Source of the DNA: Daejeonella oryzae DSM 19973
GTDB taxonomy: Bacteria > Bacteroidota > Bacteroidia > Sphingobacteriales > Sphingobacteriaceae
DNA: 64,000 bases
Assembly (NCBI RefSeq): GCF_000422945.1
Contig: NZ_AUHA01000002.1
Coordinates: forward strand, 744,001 to 808,000
Reading direction: 5' to 3'
The notes below the pieces were generated by a model that made no database searches, was not told the origin of the DNA, and saw only the letters and a list, made by a program, of their open reading frames with translations. The translations under genes were made by a program, and so were the position numbers. Below are positions 6,745 to 57,314 of this stretch, piece after piece. Numbering within the stretch: the first letter of the stretch is position 1; each line of letters opens with the position of its first letter.

Positions 6745-7362
6745 ATGCAAATAGTTTTAGAGAAAATTGGCCGCAGGTTTAATCGTGACTGGATATTTAA
6801 AGAAATTTCCTTTACTTTTAAAATGAATGAGTCGTACGCCATTTTAGGTGCAAATGGCTCAGGTAAATCAACACTGCTTCAAATAATCGCGGGCAATTTA
6901 ACTTCTTCTGCCGGAACGGTTTCCTATTCAGAAAATGATCGTGCCATCCATATTGAAAATGTATATTCCCATTTAAGTATGGCAGCTCCTTATATGGAGT
7001 TAATTGAAGAATTTACTTTACAGGAAATAATCGATTTTCATTTCAGTTTTAAAAGCTACCGCGATGGTATGGATTCAAAAGACTTTCTTGCCCTTCTGGC
7101 ATTAGATAAAGCACAGCATAAAGCCTTAAAATACTTCTCATCAGGGATGAAACAGCGGGTAAAACTAGCTTTGGCATTTTGTTCCCAAACACCGGTTTTA
7201 TTATTAGATGAACCAACAGCCAACCTTGACAACCAGGGGATTCACTGGTATTTATCTCTTATTGAAAAATTCTCACTTAATCGCTTAGTCATTGTTTGTT
7301 CCAACCAGGAACACGAATATAAATTCTGTAAGCAAACATTAAATGTTGCTGATTATAAGTAA
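6745..7362 (+). CDS. Small ABC transporter ATP-binding protein (CcmA-like)
   Basis: A 205-residue nucleotide-binding subunit with Walker A GANGSGKST at 35-43, signature SSGMKQR at 132-138, and Walker B VLLLDE at 151-156 followed by PTANLD. The short length and compact layout resemble CcmA-type and other small ATPases. No membrane permease is encoded next to it, so the transported substrate is unknown; it may pair with a permease elsewhere. It starts 36 bases after lpxA and may ride on the lipid A transcript. Confidence 0.85.
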   Translation: MQIVLEKIGRRFNRDWIFKEISFTFKMNESYAILGANGSGKSTLLQIIAGNLTSSAGTVSYSENDRAIHIENVYSHLSMAAPYMELIEEFTLQEIIDFHFSFKSYRDGMDSKDFLALLALDKAQHKALKYFSSGMKQRVKLALAFCSQTPVLLLDEPTANLDNQGIHWYLSLIEKFSLNRLVIVCSNQEHEYKFCKQTLNVADYK

Positions 7363-7504
7363 GAACTCCGCTTCACAGATCTAAATTTCTTATACAACTA
7401 CTGTTTTCTAATTAAAAAAATCATCGTTTAAACAACTGTAATGACGATTTTTCAAATCATCAAAAAATATTTTCACAAATCGTTTTTTTATAGAATAAAC
7501 AATA

Positions 7505-7512
7505 TATCTTTG
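7505..7512 (+). promoter_or_regulatory. Putative -7 box upstream of efp
   Basis: TATCTTTG fits the Bacteroidota -7 consensus TAnnTTTG and lies 25 bases before the efp ATG. The surrounding 175-base gap (7363-7537) is very AT-rich; a clear TTTG at the -33 position is not present. This is a plausible promoter for efp, separate from the lipid A cluster. Confidence 0.4.
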
Positions 7513-7537
7513 CGGCTCGAAATCCGGAACAAATTCA

Positions 7538-8098
7538 ATGGCAAAAGCATCTGATATAAAGAATGGAAATATCCTTCGCCTTAATGGAGAACTGGTAGTG
7601 GTAGAGGAATTTATTCACCGCACTCCAGGAAAAGGCGGTGCGTTCTATATAGGCAAGTTGCGCAACATTAAAACAGGCAAAACAGTTGAAGCCCGTATGG
7701 GTACTGACGAGCAGGTTGAGATTTGCCGGGTTGAAACAAATGATTATCAGTATTTATACGAAGAAGGTGATTATTATGTAGTAATGGATAATACATCATT
7801 CGAACAATTTAACATTCCAAAATCTCTTTTCGGCGAAGCAGCACGCTTTCTTAAAGAAGGAATGAATGTAATTGTTTCTATGGAAAGTGAAGAGCCAATT
7901 ATGGCGCAGGCACCACAATTTGTAGAATTAGAAGTAACATACACAGAACCTGCAGTTAAAGGTGATACCTCAACAAACGCTTTAAAAAGCGCAACAGTTG
8001 GAACAGGCGTTGAAATAAAAGTGCCGATGTTTGTTAATCAGGGAGATAAAGTAAAAGTTGATACCCGTTCCGGGAGTTATATAGAAAGAGTTAAATAG
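7538..8098 (+). CDS. efp: Translation elongation factor P
   Basis: EF-P binds between the P and E sites of the ribosome and relieves stalling at polyproline stretches. The 186-residue protein has the three-domain EF-P layout; the tip loop HRTPGKGG carries lysine K32 at the position that is modified in many bacteria. The C-terminal segment GDKVKVDTRSGSYIERVK is the family signature. An intrinsic terminator follows at 8143-8175, so efp is probably a single-gene unit or the end of the upstream one. No modifying enzyme gene is visible in this window. Confidence 0.97.
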   Translation: MAKASDIKNGNILRLNGELVVVEEFIHRTPGKGGAFYIGKLRNIKTGKTVEARMGTDEQVEICRVETNDYQYLYEEGDYYVVMDNTSFEQFNIPKSLFGEAARFLKEGMNVIVSMESEEPIMAQAPQFVELEVTYTEPAVKGDTSTNALKSATVGTGVEIKVPMFVNQGDKVKVDTRSGSYIERVK

Positions 8099-8142
8099 TT
8101 TTTTGACTATAAAGATAAGGTTTAGGTTTAGGTTGATTAGTG

Positions 8143-8175
8143 CGGTCTCAATTAATTTGAGGCCGTTTTTTTTTT
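8143..8175 (+). terminator. Rho-independent terminator after efp
   Basis: CGGTCTCAA and TTGAGGCCG form a nine-pair stem with one G-U pair and a six-base loop, directly followed by a run of more than ten T. It lies 45 bases past the efp stop and is one of the clearest terminators in the window. Confidence 0.85.
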
Positions 8176-8219
8176 GGATTTTTCTCGGCGAAAATTAACA
8201 GAGTTTTATACATTGCGAT

Positions 8220-8792
8220 GTGTACAAAGAAACTCTACGTAAAACATATTTAGAGCGAAGAAAGAACTTAAGCCGCTCGCAATATTGGACTTTAAACGAA
8301 AACCTGCTGGAGCAGGTAGCAAAAATTAACTGGGATCAGTTTAAATTAGTGCATTTGTTTATGCCCATTAATAAGCATCTGGAAGTTGACACATTTTCCA
8401 TTCTGGAATATTTTAAAGAGAAAGAGCCTCAGCTAAAAATCGTTATTCCGCGTACCAACTTCGATTTAATTGAAATTGAAAATGTATTATTTGATCCCAT
8501 ATATACCATTCTGGGACGTAATAAATACGATATTCCGGAACCAATTCACGGAAAAATAATTTCATCAAGCCAGATTGACGCCGTTTTTGTTCCCCTGCTG
8601 GCTTTTGACCTGAAGGGTAACCGAGTAGGTTACGGAAAAGGATTTTATGATAAATTTTTAAAAACCTGCCGGAATGATGTTCAAAAGATTGGTCTGTCAT
8701 TCTTTGACCCGGTAGATCAAATCAATGATTTAAATGAATTTGATATCCCTTTAAACGCATGTATAACACCGTCAAAAATTTGGGAATTTTAG
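8220..8792 (+). CDS. 5-formyltetrahydrofolate cyclo-ligase family protein
   Basis: The enzyme converts 5-formyltetrahydrofolate to 5,10-methenyltetrahydrofolate with ATP, feeding a storage folate back into one-carbon metabolism. The 190-residue protein carries the family motif GYGKGFYD at 137-144 and a basic N-terminal segment (LRKTYLERR). The start is GTG at 8220; an overlapping ATG at 8218 is out of frame and stops after eleven codons. It converges with hutG with almost no gap (stop at 8792, hutG stop at 8794). Confidence 0.92.
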   Translation: MYKETLRKTYLERRKNLSRSQYWTLNENLLEQVAKINWDQFKLVHLFMPINKHLEVDTFSILEYFKEKEPQLKIVIPRTNFDLIEIENVLFDPIYTILGRNKYDIPEPIHGKIISSSQIDAVFVPLLAFDLKGNRVGYGKGFYDKFLKTCRNDVQKIGLSFFDPVDQINDLNEFDIPLNACITPSKIWEF

Positions 8793-8793
8793 A

Positions 8794-9804
8794 TTATCTC
8801 AGCTGAGCCTTAACAAAATCACTTATTAAAGTTGCAATAAGCTTCCCGGTAAGCTGATCCTCCCTGCCATCTGTTAAATGAACTGCCCCTTCTGCAATAT
8901 GCAGATAGAAAAACTGGCGTAATTTAGTTTGAGTGATCATCTCCCGAACCTGTGTAACTGTAAAACCTGTTGGAGAAATAGCACTTGATAAGGCTCCGCC
9001 GATACAGTCAAGATCTACTTCTAATCCGCATATGCCTTCCGTAAAATTCATGGCATCCTGAAAAGCACGGTCGTGACTGTCATTTTCTCTGATGAAATCC
9101 TCCAAAAAATAGTAGCGTATCTGACTTTTTAAAGCGGTCATTTCATCAACTAATGACTGGGAATTATAATTTTCCTGAAGACCCAAAACTGCATATTTAT
9201 TCAAAAAATTTTCACGTAAAGCATATCTGAAACCATTTCCGCTATGTCGCCCTTCCATTATCCTGAAATCACTATGCGCATCCAGATTGATTGTGTTTAC
9301 CGGGCGATTGAATTGCCGGGATAAGGCTCTTAATATTGGATACGAATTATTATGTCCTCCCCCAATTATTATTGGAATTTTCCCGGCATTAAAAATCATT
9401 TGTAAAAGCCCGGTTACCCGGTCGTCTATTTTGCTAACCAGGTCACGCATTTGCTCCAAATCGTTTACATGATGTGGATTTAAGTCCTCTGCAGCTTTTA
9501 ACTCACCTTCAAAATCCAGATGACCTAACACAGCCATCTCTTCGCCGGTAAAGCGTTTTGTGCTTTGAATATTTACCAATGTTTTTAAAGCGGGTTCCCA
9601 GGCCGTATGTGCACCACCCAAACCAAAGTTCGCTCTAACTCCAATATCCTCGGGCAAACCCAAAAGAACAAATTTACAAGACAGGCTGGTTAAATTTTCC
9701 AGACCGGATACCAGCTGCAGCTTTTCTCCAAGTTTGGTTTCGCCTTCACGGATGGAGGTTAAGGATAGTAAGTGCTCTTTTGTATAAATATGCAATCGTT
9801 CCAT
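8794..9804 (-). CDS. hutG: Formimidoylglutamase (arginase-fold HutG)
   Basis: HutG hydrolyses N-formimidoyl-L-glutamate to glutamate and formamide, the last step of histidine breakdown. The protein is a ureohydrolase: the manganese-binding motifs GGGHNN, DAHSDFR and EVDLDC are all present, at about residues 148-153, 175-181 and 263-268. I take the ATG at 9804 (MERLHIYTKEHLL), one base after the hutI stop; an ATG at 9822 inside the end of hutI would add six residues. The pairing with hutI directly upstream supports the substrate; without it agmatinase-like roles would be possible. Confidence 0.88.
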   Translation of the reverse strand: MERLHIYTKEHLLSLTSIREGETKLGEKLQLVSGLENLTSLSCKFVLLGLPEDIGVRANFGLGGAHTAWEPALKTLVNIQSTKRFTGEEMAVLGHLDFEGELKAAEDLNPHHVNDLEQMRDLVSKIDDRVTGLLQMIFNAGKIPIIIGGGHNNSYPILRALSRQFNRPVNTINLDAHSDFRIMEGRHSGNGFRYALRENFLNKYAVLGLQENYNSQSLVDEMTALKSQIRYYFLEDFIRENDSHDRAFQDAMNFTEGICGLEVDLDCIGGALSSAISPTGFTVTQVREMITQTKLRQFFYLHIAEGAVHLTDGREDQLTGKLIATLISDFVKAQLR

Positions 9805-9805
9805 A

Positions 9806-11047
9806 TTAATAGATTTTACCATTCAGGATTACCTTGTCAATTAAATTTGAACCAAAAGCATAAGGAAGGTACTCTAATGAAGGTACAGTTTTACTTATAA
9901 AAAGGTTTGCGATCTTTCCTTTTGTGATACTTCCATATTTATCTGATAATTCCATAGCTGCAGCACCATTTATGGTTGCCGCATTAATTGCCTCTGCCGG
10001 AAGCATTTTCTGCCGCATGCAAGCTAGAGAGACTACTAGATTCATATTACCCGAAGGTGTAGAACCCGGATTGTAATCTGATGCCAAAGCGACAGCAATA
10101 TTTTTATTTATCAGCATCCGTGCATCTGCAAACGGAATTCCCAGGAATAAAGAACATGAAGGAAGAAGTGTGGCAATAGTTTCGGAGTTTGCAAGACTTT
10201 GCAAGGCTTTATCATCCATTACTTCCAAATGATCAACTGATAATGCCTGGTGATTTACAGCAACCTGAACAGCGCCCATGGATGATAATTGATTTGCATG
10301 GATTTTAGGTTTTAAACCATATTTCGCTCCGGCTTCCAGAATTTTTGCTGTTTCATCAACAGAGAAAAATCCTTGTTCACAGAAAGCATCTATATAATCC
10401 GCTAAACCTTCATCAGCCATAATAGGCAAAAGTCGGTCAATAAGAAGTTTTAAATATCCATTGTGATCATTCTTAAACTCTGACGGATAAGCATGGGCTC
10501 CTAAAAATGTAGCCTTTACAGGAATAGAGGAATTTTCTTTTAACCTGCGGATGACCCGAAGCATTTTCAGTTCACTTTCTATGGTTAAACCATAGCCACT
10601 TTTAATTTCAATGGCTCCGGTTCCCAGCTGCATTACTTCTGATAAGCGTTTCCAGGCACTCTCAAAAAGTTCATTTTCTGATGTATTTCCAAGCTTCCGG
10701 GCCGAATTTAAAATTCCGCCTCCTGCATTGGCAATCTCTTCATACGATTGTCCTTTAATCTTCATTACAAATTCCTCTTCCCGGCTGGCGGCAAAAACCA
10801 AATGAGTATGAGAATCGCACCAGGAAGGTATTACATACTTACCGGCGGCATTTATTTCCTGAAGTTCAGAACCAAATTCAGGCACAGAATCCATAGATCC
10901 CAAATCCCTTACAAGTCCGTTTTCAATGAGAAGCCATGAATTTTCAAGAACAGGGAGATTAGCCATTGCACTTCCGCGAAGAATGCGTAATTCAGGAGAA
11001 TGAACTCCCACAAGACCTTTAATATGCGATATCAGCAGTAATGACAT
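9806..11047 (-). CDS. hutI: Imidazolonepropionase HutI
   Basis: HutI hydrolyses 4-imidazolone-5-propanoate to N-formimidoylglutamate, the third step of histidine degradation. It is a metal-dependent amidohydrolase: DSHTHLVFAASREEEF near residue 70-85, a HANQLSS segment, SVDHLE and the ASDYNPGS motif are family hallmarks. I choose the ATG at 11047 (MSLLLISHIKGLV), preceded by a purine-rich GGGA; an in-frame TTG at 11068 is possible but lies almost at the end of the upstream exonuclease gene. It forms a tight pair with hutG. Confidence 0.95.
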   Translation of the reverse strand: MSLLLISHIKGLVGVHSPELRILRGSAMANLPVLENSWLLIENGLVRDLGSMDSVPEFGSELQEINAAGKYVIPSWCDSHTHLVFAASREEEFVMKIKGQSYEEIANAGGGILNSARKLGNTSENELFESAWKRLSEVMQLGTGAIEIKSGYGLTIESELKMLRVIRRLKENSSIPVKATFLGAHAYPSEFKNDHNGYLKLLIDRLLPIMADEGLADYIDAFCEQGFFSVDETAKILEAGAKYGLKPKIHANQLSSMGAVQVAVNHQALSVDHLEVMDDKALQSLANSETIATLLPSCSLFLGIPFADARMLINKNIAVALASDYNPGSTPSGNMNLVVSLACMRQKMLPAEAINAATINGAAAMELSDKYGSITKGKIANLFISKTVPSLEYLPYAFGSNLIDKVILNGKIY

Positions 11048-44683: not shown

Positions 44684-45148
44684 TCAGGATAATAATCTTT
44701 GTCTGAGCAAAAACTCAAGCTGTTCATTTGAAGTAACCAGTTTACCGTTAAGTGTTTTTACTTCCAGATTCTGCTGATAAAGCTCGAATGCTTTAGCTAT
44801 TGTTTCATCAAGCACTTTTTCATCCCAGGGCTTAGTAAGATAATGGTATATTTTCCCCTTATTAACAGCATCTACAACTGCATTCATATCAGAATATCCG
44901 GTTAAAAGAATTCGGATAGGATCGGGATATTTTACAAGAACTTTTTCTAAAAACTCAATACCGGTCGTGTTCGGCATTCTCTGATCTGTGATAATAATCT
45001 CAATGGGATTTTTATCCAGTATTTGCATGGCCTCGTCTGCACTTAACGCAATTTTAATATTGTATTTTAAGCGAAATGTGGCCTTAAATGAAAGCAGGTT
45101 GTTTTCTTCATCATCCACATAAAGTAAATTGATCTTTTGTTCAGACAT
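44684..45148 (-). CDS. Single-domain response regulator with C-terminal coiled segment
   Basis: About 154 residues from the ATG at 45148 (MSEQKINLLYVDDEENN); upstream in-frame starts add hydrophobic residues unlike a receiver. Phospho-acceptor D55 in ITDQRMPN and K106 in YLTKPWDE are present. After the receiver, a helical tail (LYQQNLEVKTLNGKLVTSNEQL) ends without an output domain. The receiver is very close to that of the hybrid at 49547 (LLYVDDE, NNL, FKA-FRL-YN), so the two arose by duplication and may share a kinase. It is divergent from the ThiF-like gene. Confidence 0.85.
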   Translation of the reverse strand: MSEQKINLLYVDDEENNLLSFKATFRLKYNIKIALSADEAMQILDKNPIEIIITDQRMPNTTGIEFLEKVLVKYPDPIRILLTGYSDMNAVVDAVNKGKIYHYLTKPWDEKVLDETIAKAFELYQQNLEVKTLNGKLVTSNEQLEFLLRQRLLS

Positions 45149-45172
45149 TTGCGTATACAGCTTTGTAGCAAG

Positions 45173-45180
45173 CAAAAATA
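45173..45180 (-). promoter_or_regulatory. Putative -7 box for the divergent response regulator
   Basis: On the minus strand TATTTTTG fits TAnnTTTG and lies 24 bases before the ATG at 45148. A TTG about 21 bases further upstream is a possible but poor -33 element. Confidence 0.3.
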
Positions 45181-45246
45181 GTATAAAGATTCCAAGATGT
45201 TCAATATGACACATGGATCGATAAATTAAATTTCTATAATTATAAA

Positions 45247-46347
45247 ATGGAGCATCAAACAACACTTTCTTCAGAAACATTTAAACCTCAATTTTATCGC
45301 TTAAGCAACGAATCTGATAAAGCAGATTTTAATGTTTTGAAGAACTTACCTTATGTGGAGATATATGATGAAATAGAAGGCCAATTAACCGAATTGATTA
45401 AAAGTTTAAATCCTTCTGAAAGGATTGTTGCATCCGAATACCCGGATCGTATTTTAAAGCATTTAAACGGTCAGCCGATTTCTGAATACGGTGTATGGGT
45501 ATACTATCCCTGGAGCAAAAAGTTAGTTCATTTACTTGATGAGCATGAATTTATAGAAGTAAGAACCAACCGGAACCGGAATAAAATAACTCGTGAGGAA
45601 CAAGAGAAATTAAAAACGAAGAAAATTGGAATTATTGGCCTTTCGGTGGGGCAATCCATTGCTTTAACCATTGCCATGGAAAGAACCTGCGGAGAACTGC
45701 GGCTGGCTGATTTTGATACTGCCGAGCTGAGCAATTTAAATCGGTTAAGAACGGGAGTGCATAATCTGGGTTTAAAAAAAACCATTATTGCCGCCAGAGA
45801 AATTCTTGAAATAGATCCTTTTATAACCGTTAAGATTTTCAATGAAGGATTGAACGATGAAAACATAGCTGATTTTTTAACCGCAGACGGGAAACTGGAT
45901 CTGCTGGTAGAAGTATGTGATGGTCTGGATATTAAAGTGAAAAGCAGACTTAAATCACGGGAATTTGAAATACCGGTTTTGATGGATACAAATGATCGCG
46001 GCATGCTGGATATAGAGCGCTTCGACCTGGAACCTGACCGTCCGCTTCTGCATGGTTTATTGGGAAGAATCAATCCCGAAAAGATTAGCAGCTTGTCCAA
46101 TACAGAAAAAATGGAACTGATCTTTCGAATAGTCGGATCAGAAACTATTTCACAAAGATTGAAGGATTCGGTTCCTGAGTTGGGGAAAACGCTTAACAGT
46201 TTACCGCAACTTGCTTCTTCGGTGGTTTTAGGAGGAGCGATCAGCACAGATGCAGCCCGCCGGATTTTACTTGATCAGTTTCAAGCATCAGGACGTTTTT
46301 ATGTAGATACTGAAGAGTTAATAAAAGAGGATCAGGTATTCATCTAA
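45247..46347 (+). CDS. E1/ThiF-like adenylyltransferase (N-terminal part of the Rv1355c-like architecture)
   Basis: A 366-residue protein with a ThiF/MoeB-type Rossmann domain from about 120 to 345: glycine loop KIGIIGLSVG at 126-135, DFDTAELSNLNR at 155-166 (the acidic and Asn residues that bind ATP and Mg in E1 enzymes), and LLVEVCDGLDIKVKSR near 219-234. Only two cysteines, C148 and C224, are in the domain and no CxxC zinc pair is present. The N-terminal 115 residues are unlike classic E1s and resemble Rv1355c-type proteins, which carry a nitroreductase domain at the C-terminus; none is fused here. The substrate is unknown. A conserved acyltransferase and sensor kinase genes follow, suggesting a role in making a signal or modified lipid. 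Confidence 0.75.
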   Translation: MEHQTTLSSETFKPQFYRLSNESDKADFNVLKNLPYVEIYDEIEGQLTELIKSLNPSERIVASEYPDRILKHLNGQPISEYGVWVYYPWSKKLVHLLDEHEFIEVRTNRNRNKITREEQEKLKTKKIGIIGLSVGQSIALTIAMERTCGELRLADFDTAELSNLNRLRTGVHNLGLKKTIIAAREILEIDPFITVKIFNEGLNDENIADFLTADGKLDLLVEVCDGLDIKVKSRLKSREFEIPVLMDTNDRGMLDIERFDLEPDRPLLHGLLGRINPEKISSLSNTEKMELIFRIVGSETISQRLKDSVPELGKTLNSLPQLASSVVLGGAISTDAARRILLDQFQASGRFYVDTEELIKEDQVFI

Positions 46348-46428
46348 ATTTTTAAGTAATGAAAGAATTTATTTGAAAAATGCTTTTCAAATATTTATTT
46401 AAAAGTGAATTTATAAAGATTACAGGTT

Positions 46429-46436
46429 TATATTTG
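46429..46436 (+). promoter_or_regulatory. Putative -7 box for the acyltransferase-sensor kinase operon
   Basis: TATATTTG fits TAnnTTTG in a 304-base gap (46348-46651). A -33 TTTG is not present at the right distance. An eight-base inverted repeat, TACAGGTT (46421-46428) and AACCTGTA (46491-46498), flanks the box and could be a regulator site or leader structure. Confidence 0.35.
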
Positions 46437-46452
46437 CCTCAGGGGAGAAAAA

Positions 46453-46503
46453 TTGAATCAATATAGTGCATCCGCACACATGAAATTTACAACCTGTATT
46501 TAA
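46453..46503 (+). other. Very short ORF in the leader, 16 codons with a strong Shine-Dalgarno-like sequence
   Basis: TTG at 46453 follows AGGGGAG by a few bases, an unusually strong ribosome-binding site for this genome. The frame reads MNQYSASAHMKFTTCI and stops at 46501-46503. It could be a leader peptide or chance. Confidence 0.2.
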
Positions 46504-46525
46504 TTATTCTTAAACAAAAGGTCAT

Positions 46526-46621
46526 ATGCCTTACGCTGATGACCAATTTATAACTATAGAAAATAACACGGATGAAAAGTTTCTTCCACATGGCAGATTA
46601 TACCGTCAAACAATCAATTAA
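46526..46621 (+). CDS. Possible 31-residue small protein in the leader of the acyltransferase gene
   Basis: ATG at 46526, preceded by AAAAGG, opens a 31-codon frame that reads MPYADDQFITIENNTDEK in its first part and ends RLYRQTIN. It ends 30 bases before the ATG of the GNAT-like gene on the same strand. The composition (acidic, polar, no membrane segment) looks like a real peptide, but no family is recognised. It may be a small co-regulated protein, a peptide precursor or chance. Confidence 0.3.
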   Translation: MPYADDQFITIENNTDEKFLPHGRLYRQTIN

Positions 46622-46651
46622 ATCCGCAGAATTGATTTTACTGAACAGCAT

Positions 46652-47386
46652 ATGATAACAATCAGAGCTTTCAGAGCTATTGATGATTATGATGCTTGTG
46701 AAAAATTTATGTGGGGGCACCGCAAAGTATTAGAAAATATTGGGGTGAAAAAGTTAACCTCGTCTAAAGACGAGTGGATGACTAATCCGGCTGCTTTTGT
46801 AATTATTGTCGAAACCGAGGATCGCTCAAAAGTTTATGGAGGCGCCCGTGTAAATGTAGCCGGCGGAACACAGCAATTGCCCATTGAAGAAGCTACAGGC
46901 TATTTAGATGATTCTATTTATAAAATAGTTAAAGAACATGCAATTACGGGAACCGGGGAAATTTGCGGGTTATGGAATTCACGGGAGGTGACGGGCATGG
47001 GTATTGGAAGCGTTTTTTTAACTCGTGCCTGCGTTGCCATTTGCAAATTTATTGGCCTGCAGACCCTATTCGGGCTTGCAGCACCTTATACAGTAAAAAT
47101 GGCACAGGATGTTGGTTATCAAATACTCGATACAATTGGTAATAACGGGACTTTTTATTACCCAAAACTGGATCTTGTTGCCACCGCCCTTGTTCTAAAT
47201 GATGTAAATACTATTATGCTAGCCGAACCTTTTGAAAAGGAACGCATTTTCAGCTTACGCGAAGATCCTAATCAGCTTTCGGTAGAAATTTTAAGAAAAA
47301 AAGAATTAGAAATACAATACTACCTTCAGTTACCCAATATAGAAAGTTGGTATAATTCAGGGATTATTGAAAGAATTATCAGGTAA
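46652..47386 (+). CDS. GNAT-fold / autoinducer-synthase-like acyltransferase
   Basis: A 244-residue cytosolic protein. The segment VYGGARVNVAGGTQQLPIEEA at about 61-81, followed by GEICGLWNSREVTGMGIGSVFLTRACVAICKFIG (about 102-135 in pieces), resembles the LuxI/FeeM branch of GNAT enzymes: a Gly-Ala-Arg strand, a Leu-Pro element, then a conserved Glu strand and a Gly-rich acceptor loop (G115-G119) that would hold an acyl thioester. N-acyl amino acid synthases have a similar layout. It overlaps the sensor kinase gene by one base (TAATG), so they are coupled. The product is not known. Confidence 0.6.
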   Translation: MITIRAFRAIDDYDACEKFMWGHRKVLENIGVKKLTSSKDEWMTNPAAFVIIVETEDRSKVYGGARVNVAGGTQQLPIEEATGYLDDSIYKIVKEHAITGTGEICGLWNSREVTGMGIGSVFLTRACVAICKFIGLQTLFGLAAPYTVKMAQDVGYQILDTIGNNGTFYYPKLDLVATALVLNDVNTIMLAEPFEKERIFSLREDPNQLSVEILRKKELEIQYYLQLPNIESWYNSGIIERIIR

Positions 47387-49542
47387 TGAAGCATCGGCTA
47401 AAATATTTAATACTGTGCATTTTTCTTTCCACAACAGGATTTATAAGTCTTGCTCAATCGCCAATTATTTTTGATTCTGATAACACTCAAAAATATATCG
47501 GGAAACAGGTTTCTGTTTTCCAGGATAGTACGGGTACACTAAACTTTGAGGAAGTTGCTCAGAAACCTGATCTATTTAAAAAATCACAAAATGATGTTCC
47601 TAATCTTGGAATCACTGAGTCCAATAACTGGGTTCGGTTTAATGTAAAGAATCAGTCGTCATCTGATAAAATCATTATAAATCTGGCAGCACCATCCATA
47701 GATAAGGCAACTTTATACGTGCTTCATGCCAATAACAAAGTTGACAGCAGTTCAGTTTATATCAATACCCCTATTAAAAACCGAACATATAAACACCAGT
47801 TTTTACTTTTTGATGCAGCGTTACAGCCTTCGGAAGAGGTAGTCTGCTTTTTAAAAATTAAAAGTTATAAGCAAATTCTTGCTCCCATTACTCTGGAAAA
47901 CCCTCAAAGTATTTTGAACGAGATAAGTAAAACGGACACTCTGGCGGGAATATATTTCGGAATTATGCTGGCCATGCTTTTATACAATCTGTTTATCTAT
48001 TTCTCTGTTCGCGATAGCAGCTATTTGGTATATGTTAATTATATATTTTGGGTTACACTAACTCAGGCCGCTTTACTAGGTTACTCCAACCGGTTCTCCT
48101 GGGGAGAAAGCATCTGGCTTAGTCCCTATTTGATAACTATCAGCGGAGCACTGGTAGGAATTGCTACGGGCAGCTTTTCTAAATCTTTTCTGCGAACCAC
48201 TACTTATTTGCCAAAAATAAACCTCTTTATTAATTTGATTATAGGAGCCGATGTTCTGGCTATCATTTTGATTATTGCAGGATTTCCCATTATCAGTTAT
48301 AATATTGTTAACGCCGCAGCTGCCTTGGGCTCCATAATAATCTTATTTGCGGCTTACAAGGTTACACTGAAAAACTATAAGCCAGCCAAGTTTTTCTTAA
48401 TCGCATGGTCTGTATTTTTGTTATCGGTAGTATTATTTGTATTGAAAGATTACGGCATTTTGCCTTATAATTTCATAACCGTTCACAGCTTGCAGCTGGG
48501 TTCTGCAATAGAAGTATTCCTTTTATCAATAGCGCTTGCAGACCGTATTAATATTCTTAAAAAAGAAAAAGAAATTTCCCAGGCCGAGGCTTTACATGCT
48601 GCAAATGAAAATGCCCGAATTATTCGTGAGCAAAACATTATACTTGAAGCCAAAGTGCAGGAAAGGACTGTGGAGTTAAGTGTTACCAATGTTGAATTGC
48701 ACAACGCAATGATAGATTTGAAAGAAGCTGAAGCTCATTTAATTGAGTCAGAAAAAATGGCTTCTCTTGGTTTACTCACAGCAGGAATAGCACATGAAAT
48801 TAACAACCCGATAAATTTCGTTACCTCTAATATAAAACCATTAAGGCGTGATGTCGACCAGCTATTAGAATCAATCAACTGGCTTCAGGAAATTTGCTGT
48901 TCCGATTTAAGTATTGAACAAAAGCAGCAACAAATAGAAGAACATAAAGATGAAATTGATTTTGACTATCTTAAACTCGAAATAGACCAGCTATTGAACG
49001 GTATTAAAGAAGGTGCATCACGTACAGAAGAAATTGTAAAGGGCTTGCGTGTGTTTTCACGCCTGGATGAAGATGATTTGAAAAAAGCTGATATGAACGA
49101 AGGGCTTAATTCAACTTTGACTATCGTGAATAATCTCTTAACCAATAAGATAACACTTCAAAAAGTATATGGGGAAATTCCATTGATAGAATGCTACCCC
49201 GGAAAATTAAACCAGGTTTTTCTTAACATTATTACAAATGCGATTTTTGCCGTCAAACAGAAATTTAAAGAGGAGCCAGGAGGTAATATTATTATTACAA
49301 GCAACTATCGGGACAACCGTGTGTTTATAAAAATTCAGGATAATGGAACCGGAATGGATGAAAAAACCCGTAAAAAGATATTTGAGCCCTTTTTTACAAC
49401 TAAAGATGTAGGCGAAGGTACCGGACTGGGTATGTCTATTGCGTATAATACTATCCGGAAACATCATGGAGAAATTTCCGTAAACTCCACTCCCGGAGTA
49501 GGAAGCGAATTTATTATTGAACTACCTCTTAACCTGGAATAG
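47386..49542 (+). CDS. 7TM-DISM sensor histidine kinase
   Basis: A 718-residue membrane kinase. Order: signal peptide (1-23, ending ISLAQ), 7TMR-DISMED2 extracytoplasmic domain (about 30-165), seven membrane segments (about 180-390), a coiled coil (about 395-455), the dimerisation domain with phospho-acceptor H470 in GIAHEINNP, and the HATPase domain (N box NIITNAIFAV, G1 DNGTGMDEK, G2 GEGTGLGMSI). 7TM-DISM proteins are thought to sense carbohydrates or small ligands. Located directly after the acyltransferase with a one-base overlap, it may sense the acyltransferase product; the RR-kinase that follows overlaps its end closely. Confidence 0.9.
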   Translation: MKHRLKYLILCIFLSTTGFISLAQSPIIFDSDNTQKYIGKQVSVFQDSTGTLNFEEVAQKPDLFKKSQNDVPNLGITESNNWVRFNVKNQSSSDKIIINLAAPSIDKATLYVLHANNKVDSSSVYINTPIKNRTYKHQFLLFDAALQPSEEVVCFLKIKSYKQILAPITLENPQSILNEISKTDTLAGIYFGIMLAMLLYNLFIYFSVRDSSYLVYVNYIFWVTLTQAALLGYSNRFSWGESIWLSPYLITISGALVGIATGSFSKSFLRTTTYLPKINLFINLIIGADVLAIILIIAGFPIISYNIVNAAAALGSIIILFAAYKVTLKNYKPAKFFLIAWSVFLLSVVLFVLKDYGILPYNFITVHSLQLGSAIEVFLLSIALADRINILKKEKEISQAEALHAANENARIIREQNIILEAKVQERTVELSVTNVELHNAMIDLKEAEAHLIESEKMASLGLLTAGIAHEINNPINFVTSNIKPLRRDVDQLLESINWLQEICCSDLSIEQKQQQIEEHKDEIDFDYLKLEIDQLLNGIKEGASRTEEIVKGLRVFSRLDEDDLKKADMNEGLNSTLTIVNNLLTNKITLQKVYGEIPLIECYPGKLNQVFLNIITNAIFAVKQKFKEEPGGNIIITSNYRDNRVFIKIQDNGTGMDEKTRKKIFEPFFTTKDVGEGTGLGMSIAYNTIRKHHGEISVNSTPGVGSEFIIELPLNLE

Positions 49543-49546
49543 CTAC

Positions 49547-50650
49547 ATGGTGAACCAATTAGAAAAACCCAAGAAAATAAAATTACTGTATGTAGATGAC
49601 GAAGTTAATAACCTCACCGGGTTTAAGGCTTCGTTTCGGTTAATGTATAATGTGTTAATTGCTAATAATACTACAGAAGCTCTTGAACACTTAAATAATC
49701 ATCCTGATATACAGGTTATTTTTTGTGACCAGCGAATGCCCGACAAAACAGGCGTTCAGTTTTTTGAAGAAATCAGAAGCACTTTTCCGGATCCGATACG
49801 CATATTAATTACCGGATTTACGGATATAGAAACGGTTATTGATGCCATTAATATTGGAAATATTTTCAGGTACATTAAAAAACCATGGTCAGAACCTGAT
49901 ATTATAACCGCTGTTAATGAGGCCAACCAATTTTACGTTGCCAATAAATTAATGGAAACCAAAAATGCGGAGCTTCAAAAGGCGTATATAGAACTGGATA
50001 AGTTTGCCTACAGTGTAACTCATGATATACGCGGACCGCTTTTGAGTATAATGGGAGCAATTGATGTTGCCCAGTATATGGATACCATTGATGAAGTCAA
50101 AGAGATGCTTGTGCTGATGAGAGAATCTGTTAATAATCTCGAAGGCTTTATCCAGAGCATTCATGATTATCATAATGTACAACGTGGAGCACTGGTTATT
50201 TCAGAGCTTAATTTCAATGATCTGGTACAGGAACAAATTGTTACCCATCAGCTTACCGCAAAAATGAATCATGTGGAGTTTAAAACTGATGTAACCCAGA
50301 CTGAAGTTTTTAGGGGTGATAATATGTCTATGAAAATTATCCTTAACAATCTCTTGTCTAATGCTTTCAAATACCAGCAAAAATATAACGAAGAGAAACT
50401 GGTCGAACTATCGGTAAAAGTTGAAAAAGGTTTCGCTATTATTGAAGTTAAGGATAATGGTATTGGTATTGCCGGAAACCATATTGGAGAAATATTCAAC
50501 ATGTTTTTCAGAGCAAGTTCACAGGAATCAGGCTCAGGTTTTGGTCTTTATAACGTTAAAGATGCACTGCTAAAATTAAACGGAGAGATAAAAGTAGAAT
50601 CGGCACTCAACCAGGGAACCACTTTCCAGGTAAAAATACGTAACAAATAA
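49547..50650 (+). CDS. Hybrid receiver-histidine kinase
   Basis: A 367-residue cytosolic protein starting at the ATG at 49547 (MVNQLEKPKK), five bases after the sensor kinase stop. An N-terminal receiver has D61 in FCDQRMPD and a KKPW motif (K at about 112). A helical linker leads to the kinase dimerisation segment with H159 in AYSVTHDIRGPLLS, then an HATPase domain (NNLLSNAFKY, DNGIGIAG, SGSGFGLYNVKDAL). It would take phosphate from the upstream kinase and act as a second relay. The receiver closely resembles that at 44684-45148. Confidence 0.88.
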   Translation: MVNQLEKPKKIKLLYVDDEVNNLTGFKASFRLMYNVLIANNTTEALEHLNNHPDIQVIFCDQRMPDKTGVQFFEEIRSTFPDPIRILITGFTDIETVIDAINIGNIFRYIKKPWSEPDIITAVNEANQFYVANKLMETKNAELQKAYIELDKFAYSVTHDIRGPLLSIMGAIDVAQYMDTIDEVKEMLVLMRESVNNLEGFIQSIHDYHNVQRGALVISELNFNDLVQEQIVTHQLTAKMNHVEFKTDVTQTEVFRGDNMSMKIILNNLLSNAFKYQQKYNEEKLVELSVKVEKGFAIIEVKDNGIGIAGNHIGEIFNMFFRASSQESGSGFGLYNVKDALLKLNGEIKVESALNQGTTFQVKIRNK

Positions 50651-50676
50651 AATCAGGAGTACGTATTAATTGTATA

Positions 50677-51096
50677 ATGCAAAAAATAAGCCCTGAATTT
50701 ATAATCATAGACGATAGTAAGTTAGATTGTTTTATAGCCGAAAAAATTATTCAGAATACAGGTCAGTATAAAGTTCAAACATTTATGCAGGCCGGCTTAG
50801 TGATTGATTTAATAAAAAATACACTTTCTTTTAACGACTCCAGAACGATTATTCTGCTTGATATTCAAATGCCATTGATGAATGGATTTGAGTTTGCTGA
50901 GGAATTTGAAAAATTTCCATCTTCAATTAAAAACAGATTTCATATTTTCATGATATCATCTTCTGTAAACGATTCAGACCGCAATCGGATAAATGATTTC
51001 CCATCCATTATTAAGCTGTTTTGTAAGCCTTTAACAAAATCAATGGTTACTGAAATGACTGATCACGCTATTGCGTATCTTTCACATTCTGCATAA
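50677..51096 (+). CDS. Stand-alone CheY-like response regulator
   Basis: A 139-residue receiver: acidic DD at 12-13, phospho-acceptor D62 in [11 protein letters not shown], conserved Ser/Thr near 94 and K117 in FCKPLTK. It lacks an output domain. It starts 26 bases after the hybrid kinase and completes the phosphorelay operon. Its 3' end overlaps the convergent slipin gene by 29 bases. Confidence 0.85.
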
Positions 51097-55308: not shown

Positions 55309-55989
55309 TTGAAGGTACTTATAGTTGAAGACGAAAAAACCCTTGCCTTTGAAGTTGAAGCTTTTCTGAAAAAAGCATTTTACATTTGCGATAAGGCTCA
55401 TACAGGTAAAAAAGCATTAGAAATGCTTGATTTGAATTTGTATGACTTTGTTCTTTTAGATCTGGGTCTGCCGGATACAGATGGCCTGACATTATTAACA
55501 GAAGCCCGAAAATTAAATCCGGATGCTGCCTGTATTATTCTTACCGCAAGAGGAAATATTGAAGACCGGATTAAAGGATTGGATTTGGGTGCTGATGACT
55601 ATCTGCCGAAGCCATTTTCACTGCCAGAACTTCAATCCCGGATGCAGGCAATCTCCCGCCGAAAATATGGGATCAAAAATGAGTGCATCCCGATAGGAGA
55701 ATTTGAAATTGATTTGCAAAACCGAACTTTATTTAAAGGAAAAGATCAGGTTGATTTAACCAAAAAAGAATTTGACTTGCTAAGTTATATGCTCCTGCAT
55801 AAAAACAGAGTATTAACACGTATGCAATTAAGTGAACATATTTGGGGAAGTTTTACCGATTATGACTCTGACTCGAATTATATTGATGTTCATATTAAAA
55901 ACATCCGCAAAAAAATGGCGAATTACGCCGCGGTTGACTGGCTGGAAACTGTGCGTGGCGTAGGATATAAAATTAAGAAGCAAGCGTGA
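55309..55989 (+). CDS. OmpR/PhoB-type response regulator
   Basis: A 226-residue regulator starting at TTG (55309, MKVLIVEDE). The receiver has E7/D8, phospho-acceptor D51 in LLDLGLPD, and K101 in LPKPFSL; a winged-helix DNA-binding domain covers about 125-225 (LTRMQLSEHIW, DVHIKNIRKK, VRGVGYKI). The stop overlaps the start of the histidine kinase gene (GTGA), so the pair is translationally coupled. Confidence 0.94.
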   Translation: MKVLIVEDEKTLAFEVEAFLKKAFYICDKAHTGKKALEMLDLNLYDFVLLDLGLPDTDGLTLLTEARKLNPDAACIILTARGNIEDRIKGLDLGADDYLPKPFSLPELQSRMQAISRRKYGIKNECIPIGEFEIDLQNRTLFKGKDQVDLTKKEFDLLSYMLLHKNRVLTRMQLSEHIWGSFTDYDSDSNYIDVHIKNIRKKMANYAAVDWLETVRGVGYKIKKQA

Positions 55990-57314
55990 AATTATTAACC
56001 AAGCTGACGCTTTTCATAACCACTTCAAAGCTGGTTATTGTGCTATTGTTTGTATTGAGTCTTCCTTATTTAGTAGAACAAATCGCTTCTGAGTTTACCA
56101 ATAATTACCTGAGGCAACAGCAGCTGAAAGTAAAAGAAGTAATCAGTAAAAATGGCATTGATTTCTATCTGGAAGGAAGCAACTCCTACGGAAGTTATAC
56201 CTTGTTAAAAGAAGAATACATAGCGCTCGAAGCTATCGATAAAGATTTCTCGATTGATACTATCGAAACCACGCAACGAATTATAGAAGCCGACACGCTG
56301 CATTACCGGGTGCTGATGCATACATTTTCTATTAATAATAATCAATACCTGCTCGAAATTGGCAAAAGCACATCTACTATAAGTCAGTACAATAAACCCT
56401 TGCAGCGTATTGCTTCTTATGTACTTATCGGCTTAATTGTTATTTCGCTTATTGCAGATCTGATCTTTACCCGATTTTTACTTCAGCCATTGGGGATGAT
56501 TATTAAAAGCAAATTGATTAACAGAAAATTTCCCTTCCGGGATAATAATCCCCCGGTTAAAACCTCCACTTCTGATTTTAAATTTCTGGATAATTCCCTG
56601 ATTCTGCTCATGGAACAAATTCATGATGCTTTTGAAAAAGAGAGAGAATTTACCGCCAACGCTTCGCATGAACTGATGACTCCGATCAGCATTTTACAGA
56701 ATAAGATCGAAAATCTGATGGACGATTCTGCTGTGGATGAAGAATTGATGCAGCGATTAGTGGACATGCAAAAGACATTAAACCGATTAAAAAAAATTGT
56801 CAGATCCTTATTGCTGATTTCACGCATAGAAAATGAGCAGTTTAGTCGTTCTGAAACCTGGAATGTGCAGGAACTGTTCATTTCTATAATGGAAGAAATT
56901 AATCACCGTATGGAAGAACGTAAAATCAGCATTCAACTGGATATAAGCGCCCATACAGAATGGAAAAATCTGAACCGCGACCTGATCTTTCAATTGATTT
57001 ACAATTTGATTAATAATGCCATCAAGTATAACAAAGACAAGGGAAGTATCCGCGTAAGCGAAGTTAAAACAACAGGAAAACCCTATGAGTTGATTATTGA
57101 AGATTCCGGAATTGGTATTGCAGATGATGATCTGCCTTTAATATTTAACCGATTCAGAAAGGTTAAATCAGGAGAAAGCGAAGGATACGGTTTGGGACTG
57201 TCTATTGTAAAAAGTATAGCAGATTATCATGATATTTCTATTTCAGTATATTCTGAATTAGGGAAAAAATCAAGATTTACCTTATTGTTCCCAGAGGAAA
57301 TCGCAGGAAATTAA
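55986..57314 (+). CDS. Membrane sensor histidine kinase
   Basis: A 442-residue kinase starting at GTG 55986. Two membrane segments (about 8-35 and 135-160) flank a periplasmic sensor of about 100 residues. The dimerisation domain carries H228 in NASHELMTPIS, and the HATPase domain has NLINNAIKYN, DSGIGIAD and GYGLGLSIV motifs. It pairs with the OmpR regulator upstream. The signal is not known, though the neighbouring exported proteins are candidates for its output. Confidence 0.93.
   Translation: MKLLTKLTLFITTSKLVIVLLFVLSLPYLVEQIASEFTNNYLRQQQLKVKEVISKNGIDFYLEGSNSYGSYTLLKEEYIALEAIDKDFSIDTIETTQRIIEADTLHYRVLMHTFSINNNQYLLEIGKSTSTISQYNKPLQRIASYVLIGLIVISLIADLIFTRFLLQPLGMIIKSKLINRKFPFRDNNPPVKTSTSDFKFLDNSLILLMEQIHDAFEKEREFTANASHELMTPISILQNKIENLMDDSAVDEELMQRLVDMQKTLNRLKKIVRSLLLISRIENEQFSRSETWNVQELFISIMEEINHRMEERKISIQLDISAHTEWKNLNRDLIFQLIYNLINNAIKYNKDKGSIRVSEVKTTGKPYELIIEDSGIGIADDDLPLIFNRFRKVKSGESEGYGLGLSIVKSIADYHDISISVYSELGKKSRFTLLFPEEIAGN

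Follow-up and report, generated by a model that had tools for sequence, protein, structure and literature searches.

A 64,000-nucleotide stretch of the Daejeonella oryzae DSM 19973 genome (contig NZ_AUHA01000002.1, positions 744,001 to 808,000 of the forward strand; hereafter the window) carries a set of six genes that probably encodes both the synthesis and the perception of its own signal, most likely for a form of quorum sensing in which the sensor corresponds to the chemistry that finishes the signal. The set combines a putative N-acyl amino acid synthase (NAS), a finishing enzyme in an adjacent slot, a 7TM-DISM sensor histidine kinase, a receiver-kinase protein and two single receivers. 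What is new here is that, across related loci, the kinase has a sensor half that varies in step with the enzyme in the finishing slot. The genes, with the letters used for them below, are as follows.

44684 to 45148, minus strand: R, divergent single-domain receiver (REC, 154 aa; PF00072, E 5e-17)
45247 to 46347, plus strand: slot X, here occupied by T, an adenylating ThiF-type cyclase (Rv1355c/TrzS family) that lacks the C-terminal flavin oxidase domain (PF00899, E 2e-16; NF005901)
46652 to 47386, plus strand: N, predicted FeeM/LuxI-fold NAS (AlphaFold model, Foldseek, VIA-align)
47386 to 49542, plus strand: K, 7TM-DISM sensor histidine kinase (PF07696, PF07695, HisKA, HATPase_c)
within 47386 to 49542, plus strand: the two modules of K, sensor at about residues 1-390 and kinase at about residues 395-718 (His470), divided at the break in association with slot X
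49547 to 50650, plus strand: H, receiver-histidine kinase protein (REC-HisKA-HATPase; PF00072, HisKA, HATPase_c), with a TTG-initiated open reading frame (ORF) from 49517
50677 to 51096, plus strand: r, small divergent receiver found in only part of the loci (PF00072, E 9e-9)

Co-segregation of the kinase sensor half and the finishing enzyme

An initial collection of 91 related loci, less two duplicates, gave 89 distinct loci, all of which hold an enzyme in the slot. Class I methyltransferases of about 254 aa account for 33 of them, ThiF proteins for 31, ThiF-oxidase fusions for 24 and a methyltransferase of the ICMT family for one. We evaluated how this slot type is distributed over trees of five parts of the set, using 81 rows with complete sets (the window and 80 of the 89 loci), 80 of them labelled. 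The nine loci lacking a complete N-K-H-R set were left out, the single ICMT locus was kept out of the label counts, and L041 was labelled as ThiF alone in these trees though its protein is 693 aa long. For the sensor half of K (residues 1-395), the tree required a single change between cyclase and methyltransferase type, as against 12 for the kinase half, 10 for NAS, 10 for H and 11 for R; with IQ-TREE the corresponding figures were 1, 11, 10, 9 and 10. All 31 methyltransferase-type sensors formed one clade with a support of 100 (IQ-TREE), and the same clade was rejected for the kinase half (p-AU, from the approximately unbiased test, 8e-53), H (1e-47), NAS (4e-74) and R (1e-6). Enlarging the trees to 142 rows with genomes from the class sample described below, 13 loci being dropped, gave 1 change for the sensor half, 17 for the kinase half and 15 for NAS, and slot type and sensor clade disagreed in none of the 139 labelled rows. 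In domain trees with the new genomes, the periplasmic domain alone changed type once and the HATPase domain 17 times.

The association ends within the protein. In 60-residue windows along K, compared after excluding close relatives (background distance under 0.25), the nearest neighbour had the same slot type at a rate of 0.86-1.00 in windows up to residue 420 and of 0.39-0.69 from residue 391 on, the base rate being 0.61. The break falls at about residue 390-420, with the end of the 7TM domain. The clearest example is the closest switched pair: Sphingobacterium griseoflavum (cyclase) and S. deserti (methyltransferase) have related flanking genes in the same order and are 80% identical in the kinase half, 86% in H and 92% in R, whereas their sensors are 29% identical; NAS identity, 92% at first, drops to 50% as the slot is approached. 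Another kind of switch occurs within one genus, between L189 (O-methyltransferase) and L163 (fusion), where the kinase half is 88% and the sensor 44% identical. The L189 sensor lies outside the methyltransferase clade, and the statement that methyltransferase loci form one sensor clade is therefore limited to the common class I family.

Positions of K at which the two types use almost mutually exclusive residues concentrate in the 7TM domain: in a count made after the split had been seen, they made up 13/203 positions of the 7TM domain, 1/129 of the periplasmic domain, 1/14 of the linker, 0/32 of the signal region and 0/325 of the coil and kinase. The strongest are positions 289, 305, 312, 344, 352, 372 and 383, a distribution compatible with a lipid-like ligand that binds inside the membrane bundle. 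Within each type, NAS likewise varies with the sensor. With the kinase half, H and R controlled for, the partial r between NAS and sensor was 0.33 for the cyclase type and 0.75 for the methyltransferase type (each p 0.003, 300 permutations); within neither type did NAS covary with H (-0.01, 0.04) or with R (0.09, -0.08).

Synteny of the gene set in sampled Bacteroidota genomes

We searched 296 Bacteroidota genomes drawn evenly over the phylum, a class sample of 395 genomes screened with a NAS profile, from which all 65 new NAS loci were fetched, and a third set made up of the best 80 of 510 NAS relatives in named genomes; the distribution figures are accordingly sample counts. In the phylum sample, 13 genomes had a NAS match at E<=0.001. 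The match covered most of the protein in 12; in the thirteenth (G155) it was weak and partner genes were lacking. At thresholds chosen by us, K (E<=1e-90) was present in exactly the 12 genomes with a full-length NAS, H (E<=1e-60) in 11 and the Rv1355c family (E<=1e-60) in 10 of these, neither H nor the Rv1355c family occurring in any other of the 296. The two NAS genomes without a ThiF match are accounted for by a contig end inside ThiF (G109) and by the ICMT-family methyltransferase in the slot (G126).

In the class sample NAS was present in 76 of 395 genomes, representing 43 of 196 sampled genera. The ORF calls for these and for earlier loci were greedy by length and hid some genes in the new ones, among them NAS in 5 of the 65 new loci; a recount without this filter was used and confirmed NAS in 65/65. 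K, counted anywhere in a fetched stretch of up to 19 kb, accompanied NAS in 74 of the 76 genomes (63 of the 65 new ones and 11 earlier ones, namely the window and ten others). Of the two exceptions, L169 is a contig end and L211 is discussed below. The co-occurrence of ThiF-like, GNAT-like and 7TM-DISM genes, which the first-pass annotation of this DNA had put forward as the point to check, was thus borne out, and together the phylum and class samples lead us to reject a chance neighbourhood.

Among the 89 earlier loci, K was missing in three (L040, L082, L085), where the stretch ends, and an R orthologue was present in 81, on the opposite strand wherever the layout was displayed. Nothing else recurs between NAS and the relay genes, genes further out not having been systematically annotated. 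The best 80 of the 510 NAS relatives came from Sphingobacterium (39), other Sphingobacteriaceae (23), Chitinophagaceae (3) and genomes without ranks (15).

NAS is predicted to have a FeeM-like fold

Sequence searches say little about NAS. Nothing in Pfam matched it below 0.1, nor did NCBIfam or PHROGs give a match at E<=1, and searches of the PDB with the single sequence and with a profile gave nothing useful. Two distant relatives of NAS do match the Pfam GNAT family (E 0.002 and E 4e-5). The AlphaFold model of NAS has a predicted local distance difference test score (pLDDT) of 89.2 and a predicted template modelling score (pTM) of 0.88. The LuxI/FeeM structure anticipated for the GNAT/LuxI-like protein was recovered with this model: Foldseek ranked FeeM first (2g0b, E 3e-8), followed by the CoA-dependent N-acyl homoserine lactone (AHL) synthases, with BjaI second. 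VIA-align gave Z 16.8 over 172 residues for FeeM, 15.7 for BjaI and 15.6 for LasI, at 10-16% identity between NAS and FeeM/LuxI-type structures. Two general GNAT folds, 1xeb (Z 16.5) and 5z6n (Z 16.1), both over 145 residues, rank between FeeM and the AHL synthases, so that the fold alone leaves the reaction of NAS open. LuxI proper was rejected, NAS having no match to an autoinducer synthase family at E<=1 in Pfam or NCBIfam, though the fold is common to both.

The assignment of NAS as an N-acyl amino acid synthase follows from its neighbour T. TyzA and OxzA, which are described as working with ThiF proteins, have a FeeM/LuxI-type fold (PMC10404671), and since these partners of such ThiF proteins share the fold with NAS, we infer that NAS links amino acids to fatty acyl groups, the fold coming from the model and the substrates from the neighbourhood.

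The ThiF protein belongs to the oxazolone cyclase family

The ThiF protein of the window matches the NCBIfam 'Rv1355c family' NF005901 with E 1.5e-142 and 476.4 bits, the curated cut-off being 476; a second scoring gave 475.0 bits. The match spans profile positions 7-341 of 722, and the missing half corresponds to the flavin oxidase, a domain that is thus absent from the window protein by profile coverage. A single query from L019, run without a positive control, found no relative of the oxidase domain in the genome at E<=1. The cited work on the Rv1355c/TrzS family describes a member that cyclises N-acyl amino acids to oxazolones (PMC12856293). Asp225 of the window protein shares an alignment column with an Asp of Rv1355c-family proteins from Mycolicibacterium and Rhodococcus plasmids and, judged by this alignment, would be the counterpart of Asp217 of M. 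smegmatis TrzS, which belongs to the ATP site and cyclase site. As no oxidase domain accompanies the cyclase, the expected product of the window locus would be a saturated oxazolone.

The protein had previously been described as E1-like. It is a ThiF-type adenylating protein (PF00899); its family is that of the oxazolone cyclase TrzS and not the ubiquitin-type E1. We rejected a ubiquitin-like E1 function on the grounds that the Rv1355c family scores far above the MoeB and ThiF models of NCBIfam. There is no ubiquitin-like partner among the annotated genes of the set, no search having been aimed at one.

In the 65 later loci the slot holds a ThiF-oxidase fusion in 38, ThiF alone in 15, a methyltransferase in seven and a PF00891 O-methyltransferase in one (L189); one locus meets a contig end, one (L172) has nothing between NAS and K, and in two only the oxidase part was detected, one of these (L148) lying at a contig edge. 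A ThiF/TrzS-type cyclase is the slot enzyme in most class-sample loci. A structure search with a model of the class I methyltransferase returned 3mgg, a methyltransferase of unstated function, first and LahSB, titled a C-terminal methyltransferase, third. The slot methyltransferase would be expected to make a methyl ester or ether. It otherwise shares little with the cyclase, but N-acyl amino acids may offer both enzymes a target in their carboxylate or in some other polar group.

Kinase, relay and locus layout

K has the DISMED, 7TM and kinase domains by which 7TMR-DISM histidine kinases are defined. PF07696 (95 bits), PF07695 (155 bits) and HATPase_c (83 bits) all score above the Pfam cut-off, and HisKA, at 26.5, lies slightly under its cut-off of 26.9. 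The phospho-acceptors are intact throughout: His470 of K in 142/142 rows, the REC Asp and HisKA His of H in 81/81 and the Asp of R in 81/81. A Pfam scan of the window proteins found no DNA-binding domain in H, R or r.

All six genes named in the first-pass annotation were found again in the ORF list, with Pfam support for ThiF, K, H and both receivers, and the K reading frame does open with the final base of the NAS stop. The kinship that it saw between the divergent receiver and the receiver of H agrees with the divergent receivers of eight relatives, which match window H at 45-52%. Its start for R at 45280 is probably too early. The start most likely lies near 45148, since the resulting 154 aa is a common length among R relatives, and R would then not overlap the ThiF ORF. 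For H, 49547 is a likelier start than the TTG at 49517.

The ThiF and NAS genes of the window are separated by 304 bp (46348-46651), compared with -23 to 61 bp in 11 related X-N loci. This gap contains no clear oxidase remnant (best E 0.011) and has no DNA similarity to four near relatives; it may hold a separate promoter. Promoter scans found sites in the window to be no commoner than in shuffled sequence, and the one TAnnTTTG site inside the gap, at 46429, carries no weight on its own. Further downstream, at 55309-57314, the ORF list contains a further pair of a response regulator and a kinase-like ORF, outside the conserved set.

Lineages differ in the relay as well. In L195-L197, L199-L201 and similar loci of one genus group (f58/g147), a kinase-like protein longer than H, at about 510-530 aa, takes its place; G109 (L023) has a REC-PAS-HisKA_3 protein there. 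Among variants of the synthesis genes, L162 (G628) has a tandem of NAS genes (232 and 231 aa) that separates the ThiF-oxidase fusion from the kinase and perhaps provides two acyl or amino acid specificities. L211 (G475, 8804-10659) has NAS and an Rv1355c-type ThiF gene, with no kinase or receiver of the set in its 18.5-kb stretch, and has the form of a purely biosynthetic version in Bacteroidota. Outside the phylum, the plasmid of Streptomyces sp. NBC_01471 (L139, 5830-7628) encodes an oxidase-less ThiF protein next to a 211-aa GNAT protein, with no adjoining kinase, resembling the T-N pair of the window. A Rhodococcus qingshengii plasmid (L140, 1808-5956) has an Rv1355c-family gene near a GGDEF gene, echoing the cyclic di-GMP genes reported beside mycobacterial trzAS (PMC12856293).

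Comparison with known systems

In the literature searched, which left subscription papers mostly outside its coverage, we found no published description of this gene combination. PMC3684757, considered as a candidate, is not this system: as described there, the ThiF genes are part of a polysaccharide cluster and the 7TM kinase is located elsewhere.

The closest biosynthetic parallels are the oxazolone pathways OxzAB, TyzACB and TrzAS, in which a FeeM/LuxI-fold NAS likewise stands beside a ThiF cyclase of the NCBIfam family of TrzS (PMC10404671, PMC12856293). The ThiF-oxidase fusion of 24/89 and 38/65 related loci reproduces the TrzS/OxzB layout. Unlike these pathways, the present set belongs to another phylum and includes a fixed 7TM-DISM kinase, a receiver-kinase and a receiver; moreover, the oxidase domain is missing in the window, and methyltransferases replace the cyclase in many relatives. 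We do not call the window pair a complete TrzAS pathway because it lacks the oxidase; its fold, family and active-site residue fit.

The arrangement of the methyltransferase-type relatives recalls the Ralstonia phcBSRQ locus, described as encoding the signal-finishing methyltransferase PhcB, the kinase PhcS, the REC-kinase PhcR and the receiver PhcQ, PhcR and PhcQ being without a DNA-binding site (PMC8578825, PMC11960443). These relatives hold the same kinds of parts in one locus, and by this likeness of arrangement the gene set resembles Phc quorum sensing in its presumed working. A plasmid search with H returned one record, from Bernardetia, and reached no Phc sequence. In contrast to Phc, the present set adds NAS and a 7TM-DISM sensor, has a cyclase in the window and many other loci, and is found in another phylum.

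The NAS fold links the set to FeeM/LuxI-type synthases (Z 16.8 for FeeM and 15.6-15.7 for LasI and BjaI), from which it differs in that NAS has no autoinducer-synthase family match and the set no LuxR-type receptor. As in the comQXPA pherotypes, signal-synthesis genes and receptor vary together. In ComP, too, the sensor part is the variable part, and the agr case is similar. The comQXP polymorphism of Bacillus pherotypes (PMC4408185) concerns peptide signals and alleles within species, whereas the present set places unrelated enzyme families in one slot across genera.

A model for signal synthesis and perception

These data allow us to propose a mechanism. NAS would couple a fatty acyl group to an amino acid. 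The slot cyclase, a TrzS-type ThiF protein, would adenylate the carboxylate of the N-acyl amino acid and close the oxazolone, and in other loci the methyltransferase would finish the NAS product instead. The sensor module of K would then read the finished molecule, probably within the membrane bundle, and K would phosphorylate the relay proteins, namely the receivers R and r and the receiver-kinase H. Natural recombination would swap the finishing enzyme together with the sensor half while the kinase half and relay are kept, and a lineage could thereby change its 'language' and not its response. The proposal made from the window alone, that two enzymes make a small lipid-like molecule which the 7TM kinase reads and the relay transmits, gains comparative support from the synteny, the FeeM-like fold and the co-segregation of sensor and slot.

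Several observations weigh against this model. Some concern the gene content. No output regulator is recognisable in the set; L172 (G481, 7093-9893) has NAS directly before K with no finishing enzyme found; and L211, also the weakest NAS match, combines NAS and ThiF without any kinase. Free N-acyl amino acid may be the signal in L172. Others concern the enzymes and their studied relatives. Against three neighbours of plasmid-borne actinobacterial ThiF genes, candidates for TrzA, the NAS profile reached probabilities of 0.3-3.7%. In the methyltransferase structure search, juvenile hormone acid methyltransferase came 27th with phosphoethanolamine N-methyltransferases in between, a mixture of acceptor types by which structure leaves the acceptor undecided. 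The word 'kinase' is absent from the main text of the TrzAS paper (PMC12856293), and a kinase partner is therefore not known for the studied relatives.

The remaining points concern the co-segregation itself. The 7TM domain alone requires two type changes and not one. A weak link between NAS and the kinase half persists within the types (0.28, 0.26), and when these are pooled the partial r of NAS is 0.27 with the sensor, 0.23 with the kinase half and 0.13 with H (p 0.03). Once L041 was recoded, the sensor did not track the difference between cyclase alone and cyclase-oxidase fusion (5 changes versus 6-7). Nearest-neighbour prediction by raw identity in the new genomes was correct for the sensor in 43/53, the kinase half in 32/53 and NAS in 39/51; all ten sensor errors were cyclase-type rows called methyltransferase type. 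Finally, the slot gene and the sensor half are neighbours in loci with the order N-X-K, where linkage may contribute. Loci with the order X-N-K cannot break this tie because all 11/11 among the complete sets are of cyclase type.

We weighed three alternative explanations. In the first, the product is a membrane-active lipid whose level the kinase monitors in the producer, serving envelope or stress homeostasis with no signalling between cells. The cited work reports tryptazolones to be more abundant inside than outside cells and ties oxazolones to stress physiology, as this would predict, and yet it finds the acyl-tryptophan intermediates mainly in the supernatant (PMC12856293). Chemistry and sensor have switched together repeatedly on an unchanged relay, a pattern more suggestive of signal diversification than of a housekeeping lipid, and we consider this explanation unlikely.

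The second attributes the co-segregation to linkage: the slot gene would be exchanged with the 5' half of the kinase gene as a single DNA block, through crossovers in the conserved kinase half and the NAS gene, while the kinase senses something else. The N-X-K gene order favours such a block, and so does the pair L043/L071, in which NAS identity falls from 92% to 50% towards slot X as in block replacement and the region past K residue 390 is well conserved and could host crossovers. Against this stands the complete lack of slot type/sensor clade mismatches in the 139 labelled rows. Nor does the signal simply fade with distance from X, the area under the curve (AUC), which evolutionary rate also affects, being 0.74 for residues 1-60, 0.66-0.70 for windows from 31 to 240, 0.77-0.87 for 241 to 390 and about 0.5 thereafter. 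Type-specific positions, in the same post hoc count, are enriched in the 7TM domain over the periplasmic domain that lies nearer to X (Fisher p 0.011). Linkage further leaves unexplained why the synthesis genes stay with one kinase, and as the sole cause it appears improbable. The third, in which the genes make an antimicrobial or other secondary metabolite and the two-component system only regulates its own biosynthetic genes on an outside cue, can point to secreted N-acyl amino acids such as the stieleriacines, said to be antimicrobial and to modulate community composition (PMC12856293), but is very unlikely given that nothing else recurs between NAS and the relay genes (those further out not being systematically annotated) and that the co-segregation of sensor half and finishing enzyme goes unexplained.

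Implications

Beyond the window, we lean, with some reserve, towards the view that these loci represent a new class of cell-cell communication widespread in Bacteroidota, in which N-acyl amino acid derivatives (oxazolones or methylated forms) are read by 7TM-DISM kinases and finishing enzymes from non-homologous families (ThiF cyclase, class I methyltransferase, ICMT and PF00891 O-methyltransferase) are swapped together with the matching sensor half. Given that the biosynthetic pair adjoins a receptor kinase across genera and that the sensor half covaries with the chemistry, the question is directly testable, with one kinase, one predicted molecule and one predicted swap. In the cited passages, the authors of the work on oxazolone-type pairs note the likeness of these compounds to cell-cell signals and name no receptor. 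If the model is true, it would give oxazolone-type lipids a function and 7TM-DISM receptors a ligand class, and would provide the Bacteroidota with a route to quorum sensing that has no need of LuxI and LuxR.

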